Assembly: GCA_027061845.1 (NCBI GenBank)
Contig: JAMOVS010000051.1
Span: forward strand, 1-49,263
Length of the DNA stretch: 49,263 bases
Reading direction: 5' to 3'
From: Thermaceae bacterium
Lineage (GTDB): Bacteria > Deinococcota > Deinococci > Deinococcales > Marinithermaceae
Positions within the stretch are counted from its first letter, which is position 1. Each line of letters starts with the position of its first letter. The translations under genes were made by a program, and so were the position numbers. Below are positions 19,709-27,518 of the stretch, in pieces. The notes below the pieces were generated by a model, which was given only the letters and a program-made list of their open reading frames with translations, searched no databases and was not told the origin of the DNA.

Positions 19709-19742
19709 GGTGACGCCCCGGTGACGCCCCCGGGGCGAGGCT
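19709..19742 (+). promoter_or_regulatory. 11-bp tandem repeat promoter P1
   Basis: GGTGACGCCCC is repeated exactly at 19709-19719 and 19720-19730. GAGGCT at 19737-19742 sits where a -10 is expected, 9 nt after the second GTGACGC heptamer, and lies 17 nt upstream of ATG 19760 (SD GGAGG at 19749-19753). Near-copies occur before the genes at 21077 and 27536. The geometry matches SARP/OmpR-type activator sites. Confidence 0.55.
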
Positions 19743-19759
19743 GGCGCTGGAGGTGCACG

Positions 19760-20992
19760 ATGCGAAGCATCTGGCTTGGCCTGGGCGCGATGGTCCTCGC
19801 CGCCTGCGGCGGCGGGCCCCGGCCCCAGGCCTCCGAATGGCAGAAGCCGGCACCGGGGGAATACCTCTCCGCCGGTGCCGCCGCCAGCCGCGTTCAGGCG
19901 GCGTTCGCCGGTCCGGTAGCGATCCTGGTCTGGACCGAGGACCAGCAGCTCTACCGGGCCGAGGACACCGGCTCGGGGTTCTCGACCCCGGAAGCGATGA
20001 ACGCCCCTGGCACCCGGGTCTATGCCTACGCCCTCGCCGCCAGCCGCATGGGCCAGGCCGTTTTAGTCTGGCGCGAGGATTCCCGGATCGAGGTCGCCCT
20101 GCGAAGCGCAAGCGGTTGGGCCCCCACGATCAACCTCGGCCTCGGCGAAGGCTCCCGCCTGGCCGCCGCCATCGACAACTACGGCAGCGGCTGGCTGGCA
20201 CGGCAGGTCAAGGTGGGCAGCGAACACCGGGTTCGGGTCTCGCACTGGGACGGCCAGAGCTGGAACCCGAGCTTCGAAACCCCCGCCGGCTCGACGGCAA
20301 GCTCGCCCTCGTTGGCAGCCTACCGGCGCCGGGCGCTGCTCGCCTGGGCGGAACCCTCCGGCGGCACCGCCGTATGGGCCAGCCTCTTCGACGGGGGATG
20401 GAAGGCGCCCAAGCGCTTTGCCCTGGGGTTTACCAACGGCAACCCGATGGCCGCGCTCGGGGACGCCGGCGCCGCGGTGGCCTGGAGGACCACCGATCCA
20501 GCGCCGGGCGCAGTGGGGAGCGCCCTCGCCCGGGAACGTTCGGGGAGCTGGGAGACCTCGGTCATCGGCTCCGGGGCCTCGGAGGCCAAGCTGGCCTCCC
20601 TGCCCCAGTCGCTGCTGGCGGTCTGGCAGCAGCGGCAAAGCGGCGTCAGCGCCATCTTCGCCAAGCATTACCGTCAGACCCCGGCGCAGGACCGGGTCCT
20701 CAGCCTGCCTGGCCTAAAAGCCGAGCACCCCGGCCTCGCCGCCTTCCAGGACCAGGCCCTGGTCGCCTGGGTCCAGGACCTTCCCGGCGGTGGCCGCGGC
20801 ATCCTGGCCGCCGAGCTCGGCCCCCGGGGGTGGCGGCTGCCCACCCCTGACGACGTCCTCTCGCCGGCGGGTGGTGCCGTGCTGGACAAGACCCCGGCGG
20901 TGGCCCTGGGGGTGGGCGGCCGGGCGCTGGTGGCCTGGATCCAAAGGGACGCCACCGGCGTCCCCCGCGTCTACCTGGCCCGGCGGCGGTGA
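19760..20992 (+). CDS. Secreted lipoprotein, beta-propeller-like
   Basis: 410 residues from ATG 19760 with SD GGAGG. Signal peptide and lipobox (VLAAC) give lipidation near Cys15. The mature part consists of repeated units of about 50 residues with a V-W or A-W core and a G-W-x-P turn ([73 protein letters not shown]), like a six- or seven-bladed propeller. No catalytic residues are evident. It resembles the lipoprotein at 27536 in both promoter and repeat style, so the two may be paralogues. Confidence 0.8.
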
Positions 20993-21021
20993 CGGACGTG
21001 TAACGCCGCCGGGGCAAGGCT
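20989..21021 (+). promoter_or_regulatory. 11-bp tandem repeat promoter P3
   Basis: GTGACGGACGT (from 20989) and GTAACGCCGCC (from 21000) repeat with an 11-bp period, followed by GGGGCAAGGCTGGC, almost identical to the corresponding part of P1. AAGGCT (21016-21021) is the -10 candidate. The first copy overlaps the upstream gene's stop codon. The start at 21077 is 55 nt away, leaving a real leader. Confidence 0.5.
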
Positions 21022-21076
21022 GGCTAACGATCCCAAACCGTCCCCACGGGAACGGGACGGCGGGGAGGTGACGGAA

Positions 21077-25648: not shown

Positions 25649-27100
25649 ATGCAGAAGATCCTGGGCGAAGCCCTGACCTTCGACGACGTCCTGCTGGTCC
25701 CCGACTACTCCGAAGTCCTCCCCAAGGACGCCGACCCCGGCACCCGGCTGACCCGCCGCATCCGGCTCCACATTCCCATCCTCTCGGCCGCCATGGACAC
25801 CGTCACCGAGGCCAAGATGGCGATCGCCATGGCCCGGGAAGGGGGGCTTGGCATCATCCACAAGAACCTCCCCATCGAGCTCCAGGCCGGGATGGTGCGC
25901 AAGGTCAAGCGCAGCGAGGCGGGCATGGTCAGCGACCCCATCACCCTGCCCCCGAACGCCAAGGCCGAGGACGCCGAGCGGCTCTTCGCCGAGTACAAGA
26001 TCGGCGGCCTGCCGGTGGTGGACTTCCACGGCCGCCTGCTCGGCCTGGTGACGAACCGCGACCTGCGCTTCGAGCCCGACCCCGGCCGGCCGGTTTCCGA
26101 GATCATGACCCCGCGGGAAAAACTCGTCACCGCCCCGCCGGGCACCACGCTGGAGGAGGCCGAGGCGATCCTCAAAAGACACAAGATCGAAAAGCTCCCC
26201 CTGGTCGACGAGGCCGGCCGCCTCCGGGGCCTGATCACCCTCAAGGACATCGTCAAGCGCCGGAAGTACCCGAACGCTGCCAAAGACGAGGAGGGCCGGC
26301 TCCTGGTGGGGGCGGCGGTGAGCCCGGGGCCGGACCTTCTGGAGCGGGCCGCCGCCTTGGTCGAGGCCGGGGTGGACGTGCTGGTGCTGGACAGCGCCCA
26401 CGGCCACTCCAAGGGCGTTTTGGACGCGGTCCGGACCCTGAAGGAGCGCTTCCCGGTGGACGTGATCGGGGGCAACGTGGCCACCGCCGAGGGGGCGCGG
26501 GCGCTGGCCGAGGCCGGCGCCGACGCGGTCAAGGTGGGGATCGGCCCCGGCTCGATCTGCACCACCCGGGTGGTGACCGGCGTGGGCATGCCCCAGATCA
26601 CCGCCGTGATGGAGGCGGTGCGGGGCCTTGCCGGCACCGGCATCCCGGTGATCGCCGACGGCGGCGTCAAGTACACCGGCGACGTGGCCAAGGCGATCGC
26701 CGCCGGCGCCCACGCGGTGATGCTGGGCAGCATGCTGGCCGGGACCTACGAGGCCCCGGGCGAGGAGGTCATCAAGGACGGGCGCCGCTACAAGGTCTAC
26801 CGCGGCATGGGCTCGTTGGGGGCGATGAAGCAGGGCTCGGCCGGGCGCTACTTCCAGGAGGAAGCGAAAAAACTCGTTCCTGAGGGCATCGAGGGCATGG
26901 TGCCCTACAAGGGCCCGGTGGCCGACGTGCTCTACCAGATCGTCGGCGGGCTGAAGGCGGCGATGGGCTACACCGGCAGCCCCGACCTCGAGACCTTCCG
27001 CACCAAGACCCGCTTCGTCCGCATCACCAACGCCGGCCTGATCGAAAGCCACCCCCACGACGTGGCGGTGACCAAGGAGGCGCCGAACTATTCGAGGTAG
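25649..27100 (+). CDS. guaB: Inosine-5'-monophosphate dehydrogenase
   Basis: 483 residues from ATG 25649 ([18 protein letters not shown], a canonical N-terminus); the longer frame upstream is not coding. It oxidises IMP to XMP with NAD+, the committed step to GMP. Two CBS domains (about 93-205) interrupt the barrel; catalytic Cys304 lies in [13 protein letters not shown], with [13 protein letters not shown] and the flap motif [12 protein letters not shown]. The stop codon TAG is directly followed by a heptameric repeat (27100-27171). Confidence 0.96.
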
Positions 27101-27171
27101 TGCATGGTACGTGGTTCGTAGTGCGTAGGAAGGGTTTTTATCCCCCGCACCACGTACTACGAACTACGCAC
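27100..27171. repeat. Inverted pair of heptameric GTNCGTR repeats
   Basis: The left arm has heptamers GTGCATG, GTACGTG, GTTCGTA and GTGCGTA (27100-27127). The right arm, read on the minus strand from 27171, gives GTGCGTA, GTTCGTA, GTACGTG and GTGCGGG. A 19-nt spacer includes TTTTTA. The arms can form an imperfect hairpin. The left arm starts at the last base of the guaB stop; the right arm supplies the last codons and TAG of the following minus-strand gene. It looks like a dispersed intergenic repeat. Confidence 0.7.
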
Positions 27172-27462
27172 CTTTTCCTCTACCGCCCGCACCTTCGCCT
27201 CGAGGCGTCCTAAGGGCCCCTTGCGGACGTCGAACTTGGCCACCAAATAGACGCGGTTGCAGTCGGGCTCGAGCACCCGGTAGGCGGCCTCGAGAAGCCG
27301 GGTCGCCTCCTCGAAGCGCTCGGTCTCCACGATCGTCCCCATGGCGGTGAGCTGGTGGGGGTGGCCGCTCTCCCTCACCACCCGGAGCACCCGGGCGACG
27401 TAGGGAGAGACGCTTTCCCCTTTGTCGGTGGGGAAGATCGCGAACTCCATCAAGACCGACAT
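27157..27462 (-). CDS. MTH1187/YqgV-family (DUF77) thiamine-binding-like protein
   Basis: 101 residues from ATG 27462 (MSVLMEFAIFPTDKGESVSPYVARV). The pattern EFAIFPTDKG, HQLTAMGTIVET and a C-terminal KFDVRKG fit the MTH1187/YkoF-like ferredoxin-fold family, some members of which bind thiamine. No thiamine gene is nearby, so ligand and role are open. SD GGAGG and TAGACT (27478-27483 region) lie upstream. The last four residues (VRSS) are encoded by the heptameric repeat. Confidence 0.8.
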   Translation of the reverse strand: MSVLMEFAIFPTDKGESVSPYVARVLRVVRESGHPHQLTAMGTIVETERFEEATRLLEAAYRVLEPDCNRVYLVAKFDVRKGPLGRLEAKVRAVEEKVRSS

Positions 27463-27485
27463 GGCCGTCCACCTCCAGTCTAGCC

Positions 27486-27518
27486 GGTGACGCCTGGGTG
27501 ACGGGCCGGCGGGAGATT
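27486..27518 (+). promoter_or_regulatory. 11-bp tandem repeat promoter P2
   Basis: GGTGACGCCTG (27486-27496) and GGTGACGGGCC (27497-27507) are tandem with an 11-bp period. GAGATT at 27513-27518 is the -10 candidate and is 17 nt upstream of ATG 27536, the same distance as in P1; SD GGAGG follows in the same place. Confidence 0.55.

Follow-up and report, generated by a model that had tools for sequence, protein, structure and literature searches.

Lipoprotein promoters with 11-bp direct repeats in a Thermaceae bacterium: a probable SARP regulon with a box on the stop codon of the regulator gene

Most of what is known about SARPs concerns the activation of antibiotic genes in Streptomyces, and promoters with 11-bp direct repeats overlapping the −35 region are also used by PhoB/OmpR-type regulators. 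In Streptomyces, the SARP AfsR activates the adjacent small gene afsS (PMC10972967), whose product has been described as sigma-factor-like; the AfsR half-site is CGTT(T/C)ATCGNN (PMC10936776, PMC10972967). Within each 11-bp repeat, the AfsR contacts are limited to the first 8 bp, and according to the published rule for SARPs the 3′ repeat lies about 8 bp from the −10 element (PMC10936776). Here, we analysed a stretch of 49,263 nucleotides (the window), which corresponds to contig C51 of the source genome G000 (1.56 Mb, 184 contigs, 76.65% complete). A first-pass annotation of this window had proposed that three lipoprotein genes share a promoter with 11-bp tandem repeats, and had suggested an activator of the SARP/OmpR type. 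From the results presented below, we consider it very probable that these promoters, P1, P2 and P3, are members of a single regulon, and that its activator is a large SARP whose gene lies on another contig.

The promoters of the window and their counterparts in the genome

Reading of the sequence recovered the 11-bp period and the −10-like boxes that had been described for P1, P2 and P3 (Table 1), and the distance of 17 nt between the −10-like box and the ATG, reported as common to P1 and P2, was borne out as well. P3 is the weak member of the trio, its probable GTG start lying 55 nt past the −10 box. The P3 box overlaps the stop codon of the P1 gene (window 20988-20992), an arrangement paralleled by the SARP-linked box on the SARP stop codon presented below. 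Homologs preceded by the same box were found in G001, G003, G010, G011 and G012 for the P3 gene, and in G003, G007 and G011 for the P2 gene. The suggestion that the P1 and P2 products are both propeller-like found weak support: they have one 76-aa stretch in common (E = 6e-4), and in Pfam the N-terminal region of the P2 product matched the Big_5 Ig-like domain and the P1 product had no match. The window also contains a very strong hairpin (27105-27172; −38 kcal/mol, z −5.5) in the intergenic region that separates the IMP dehydrogenase gene from its neighbour; it has the appearance of a repeat element or a bidirectional terminator.

Table 1. Positions of the promoter elements, the genes that follow them and the linked regulator (window coordinates, except for the SARP gene)
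Feature	Position	Strand	Basis
P1 box, GGTGACGCCCC twice, 11-bp direct repeats	19709..19730	+	sequence; exact genome-wide match
P1 −10-like box, GAGGCT, 10 nt past second GTGACG	19737..19742	+	sequence; spacing kept in 63/72 family sites
P1 gene, lipoprotein, 410 aa; homologs with the same box elsewhere	19760..20992	+	
P3 box, GTGACGGACGT GTAACGCCGCC	20989..21010	+	sequence; exact genome-wide match
P3 −10-like box, AAGGCT, 10 nt past GTAACG	21016..21021	+	sequence
P3 gene, lipoprotein MKRWQLGIVAVLASLLWAC..., 444 aa; GTG start 21077 (or 21068)	21077..22411	+	
P2 box, GGTGACGCCTG GGTGACGGGCC	27486..27507	+	sequence; exact genome-wide match
P2 −10-like box, GAGATT, 9 nt past second GTGACG	27513..27518	+	sequence
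P2 gene, lipoprotein with N-terminal Big_5 domain, 456 aa	27536..28906	+	
Large SARP, 1052 aa	G000 contig C37:10002-13157	−	winged helix-BTAD-AAA_16-TPR

When only the window was searched with up to two mismatches, the motif was not enriched (5 found versus 6.2 expected); since this count is no better than chance, the claim was tested genome-wide, using the reversed pattern as a control. A search for exact GTGACG-N5-GTRACG yielded 9 sites in G000 versus 0 for the control. Eight of them lie ahead of lipoprotein genes (P1, P2, P3 and five on other contigs), while the ninth overlaps the stop codon of a 1052-aa SARP and precedes a 53-aa ORF, hereafter the mini-protein. Among the GTGACG-N0-20-GTGACG pairs of this genome, the spacing was 5 in 8 of 12. 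Besides P3, the two-mismatch sites among the matches listed (19/19) were all inside long open frames, without a −10 box or a lipoprotein start, and the set of G000 sites is therefore clean. We also examined whether the motif is equally common inside genes or has no link to exported proteins, and the regulon reading was not refuted; the genome-wide counts confirm a genuine common promoter ahead of lipoprotein genes.

Conservation of the box and its link to a large SARP

The motif was then sought in relatives (61 genomes scanned). Sites are frequent in the genus of G000 (g1) and in one sister genus (g2), both with 0 control matches; there were none in G002 (g1) or G008 (g3, 99% complete) and hardly any in family f4. 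In the ten family genomes that carry the SARP, each of which has at least four sites, our census comprises 72 distinct sites, and 69 of these precede a lipoprotein (60) or a mini-protein (9) gene; the other three are located in a coding region, at a contig edge and in an unclear context. The 60 lipoprotein sites include 54 automatic calls and 6 made by eye (2 of these being damaged genes), the caller being a simple pattern and not a trained predictor; the same caller was positive at 20 of 6000 random positions (0.3%), and a lipobox signal was present in 3 of 104 RBS-preceded ORFs of at least 150 aa. In the automatic calls, the distance from the box to the lipoprotein start has a mode of 33 nt and is mostly 31-37 nt, and an A....T hexamer, usually TANNNT, follows at 9-10 nt in 63 of the 72 sites. 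Each half-site has 8 conserved bases, mostly TTGTGACG in g2 and CGGTGACG in g1, and then three freer bases (8 + 3 = 11). These counts define, by computation, a regulon with a characteristic box geometry.

The SARP linked to the ninth site of G000 showed matches in Pfam to the BTAD (PF03704, E = 3.7e-16 and 3.3e-18) and, in its C-terminal part, to AAA_16 (PF13191) and TPR_12 (PF13424); the winged helix, by Pfam Trans_reg_C alone, gave 0.027. A model of residues 1-245 (pLDDT 92.3) was compared with the PDB, and the only matches with E < 0.001 were AfsR (8k60/8hvr) and EmbR, with E values from 7e-10 to 2e-8 and a TM of ~0.7. No receiver domain was detected by Pfam in the linked SARPs. The box overlaps or abuts the SARP stop codon in G000, G003, G007, G009, G010, G011, G012 and G013, as read from intact 3′ ends, and the orthologs with a box at the 3′ end have 37-93% protein identity. 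In G001, the 3′ end of the SARP gene carries GTAACG-N5-GTAACG, whereas the other sites of this genome are GTGACG.

Linkage is accompanied by co-occurrence of the box and the SARP ortholog in the family (Fisher p = 0.001). The SARP-lacking genomes G002, G004, G005 and G008, which include incomplete ones (64-90% complete; G008, 99%), had two isolated matches in all (in G004 and G005), neither promoter-like. One regulated lipoprotein family was present in 8 of the 9 SARP-positive genomes searched (missing from G010; G013 was outside the search), with the box upstream of every full copy inspected, and was not found in G002, G004, G005 or G008. The initial guess of a SARP/OmpR-type activator holds, and the evidence favours a SARP over an OmpR-type regulator.

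SARP paralogs, their half-sites and the mini-protein

A contig search for SARPs gave six loci, all in MAGs named 'Thermaceae bacterium', and our placement of the hosts in Deinococcota is based on these names. The survey within the order covered five families, with 60 large SARP ORFs in all. At their 3′ ends, exact repeats of at least 7 nt had a period of 11 in 21 of the 60 genes, and every other period from 7 to 30 in 0-3. A box followed by a −10 element at the right gap was scored at 32 of the 60 3′ ends, compared with 1/300 gene-body controls, 3/600 dinucleotide shuffles and 5/60 on the reverse strand; a recognisable 3′ box was missing in between about a quarter and a half of the remaining large SARPs. 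The half-sites at these 3′ ends (TTGTGACG, GTAACG, ATAACG, TTGCAACG, TTGGAACG, ATGACG, GCAACG, GTCACG, GTCATCC and GCCACG) mostly terminate in ACG. A table of recognition helices and half-sites, built for the SARPs with an extractable helix, contained too few independent cases for a code.

The boxes are paralog-specific. Within the family, GCCACG-N5-GCCACG followed by a −10 box was restricted to G000, G001 and G006, the genus members carrying that second SARP, with three sites per genome (one with a mismatch) ahead of the second SARP's mini-protein and of lipoproteins; one-mismatch singles of different make-up were seen in G002, G015 and G018. TGGAACG-N4-TGGAACG was found in only two of 11 genomes, G017 and G029, both with the cognate SARP, and in each of them two sites precede the mini-protein and a lipoprotein. 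In genus g12, the box TAACG-N5-ATAACG gave 36 sites in five genomes versus 8 for the control, and its targets are lipoproteins and mini-proteins, and also an aminotransferase and other non-lipoprotein genes.

Several additional boxes were recorded. The ATAACG box precedes an orthologous DegT-like aminotransferase gene in five g12 genomes (L251, L254, L264, L266, L268), and some g12 mini-protein genes with this box do not directly follow the matching SARP gene (L258, L261, L265, L274). In family f5, GTGACG-N5-GTGACG boxes (GTGACGCTCGTGTGACG and similar; L041, L195 and L201, in G021, G017 and G025, respectively) lie ahead of the genes for a family of ~112-114-aa proteins with a 'DLRGADLEFFGR'-like stretch, and perhaps represent another SARP-type regulon. 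In G018, which belongs to a distant family, GTGACG-N5-GTGACG is located directly ahead of two small XRE-type regulator genes (L115, C3:231647; L116, C16:40370). XRE-type proteins as the regulator were set aside, given that they were seen behind GTGACG boxes only in this genome.

The mini-protein is generally about 55-65 aa long, and its members are diverse: in an alignment of 29, identity to the first sequence ranges from 16 to 93%. The predicted fold is beta-beta-beta-alpha (pLDDT 77); no match was obtained in Pfam or NCBIfam, and the fold search against the PDB gave no confident match (best E = 0.99). The family is present in 34 of the 61 genomes, and no intact member was found in the SARP-lacking G002, G004, G005 and G008. 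In G008, a 99% complete genome without box sites or a SARP ortholog, a copy with an in-frame TGA (C1:1853112-1853276) apparently reflects decay of the module. Because the mini-protein accompanies the SARP and no other target is as constant, our best guess is that it acts as a dedicated feedback partner or co-regulator of its own SARP.

We also considered that an OmpR/PhoB-type response regulator binds the box, the SARP-linked mini-protein gene being merely one more member of the regulon. OmpR-type regulators likewise use 11-bp direct repeats near the −35 region, and PF00486 proteins occur in all 61 genomes; however, the PF00486 counts did not separate box-positive from box-negative genomes, and OmpR-type regulators are also present in the box-free G002 and G008. 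Moreover, every SARP paralog carries a half-site of its own at the 3′ end of its gene, and the two other half-sites appear only where the cognate SARP occurs. Such paralog-specific half-sites are not predicted by a response regulator common to all genomes, which makes this explanation improbable. Even less credible, and in our view very unlikely, is that the repeats serve as the −35 element of a sigma-factor (ECF) promoter that needs no separate activator: a −10-like box does stand at a fixed distance after the repeats, but the distance to it is 9-10 nt from the end of the second repeat and 20-21 nt from that of the first, neither being a usual sigma −35 spacing, and both repeats are conserved at period 11. 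The two-mismatch statistics of the window, which were not significant, would suit a chance similarity or a dispersed repeat element without a regulatory role. That reading is already refuted by the 9 versus 0 genome-wide count, and in ten genomes the box keeps a fixed position, amid divergent flanking sequences, ahead of several unrelated families of lipoproteins, so we assign it practically no weight.

Proposed mechanism and comparison with known systems

For the activation of P1, P2 and P3 by the large SARP, we infer that this protein binds the box and activates transcription in response to a signal, the presumed sensor being its AAA and TPR part. The two 11-bp repeats, at the place of the −35 element, would accommodate a pair of adjacent SARP protomers, and these would bring RNA polymerase to the TANNNT −10 box, in the manner of AfsR at the afsS promoter. 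The regulon would consist of extracytoplasmic lipoproteins and of the ~60-aa mini-protein, whose box lies on the SARP stop codon, and each SARP would activate its own mini-protein gene together with a private set of lipoprotein genes. We lean, with some reserve, towards a broader proposal in which Deinococcota possess many parallel and mutually insulated SARP circuits, each with a 3′-end operator, a beta-beta-beta-alpha mini-protein of an undescribed family as its first target, and private lipoproteins; the stop-codon operator would then label the DNA specificity of the regulator, making the recognition code readable from genomes.

SARPs appear here as a multi-copy system over surface lipoproteins of thermophilic and other Deinococcota, and the regulon provides a first functional grouping for otherwise unannotated lipoproteins. 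With each operator placed on the stop codon of its regulator gene, dozens of regulators can be paired with their operators by sequence comparison alone, and these pairs would allow decoding of SARP DNA specificity; the mini-protein family would represent a new, testable SARP partner. The promoter grammar is of the known SARP type, while the novelty seems to lie in the regulon, in the operator at the stop codon and in the family of mini-proteins. In the open-access literature, the coverage of which is incomplete, we found no paper linking SARPs to lipoproteins of Deinococcota, and to that extent the earlier view of a regulon not yet described stands.

The AfsR-afsS system resembles the one presented here in several respects. 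In both, the regulator has a winged helix and a BTAD at the N-terminus (the best PDB matches) as well as ATPase and TPR domains, two 11-bp direct repeats (8 conserved and 3 free bases each) occupy the −35 region, and the small-protein gene adjoining the regulator gene has a SARP-type box in its promoter; given that AfsR activates the adjacent afsS, the regulator-box-small gene layout is common to both. The spacing here is 9-10 nt from the end of GTGACG to TANNNT, that is, 6-7 nt from the end of the 11-bp unit, which agrees with the published geometry. In contrast, the half-sites here are TTGTGACGNNN, CGGTGACGNNN and others, the targets are lipoproteins rather than antibiotic regulators, the box and the regulator's stop codon overlap, and the hosts are Deinococcota instead of Actinomycetota; the mini-protein has a predicted beta-beta-beta-alpha fold and probably differs from AfsS, which has been described as sigma-factor-like. 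EmbR from Mycobacterium tuberculosis shares the winged helix-BTAD fold, but its C-terminal domain is an FHA, whereas AAA_16 and TPR domains are found here. Finally, the 11-bp direct-repeat promoters of PhoB/OmpR are similar in the period of the repeats and in their position overlapping the −35 region; however, the linked regulator here has no receiver domain, and both linkage and co-occurrence point to SARPs.
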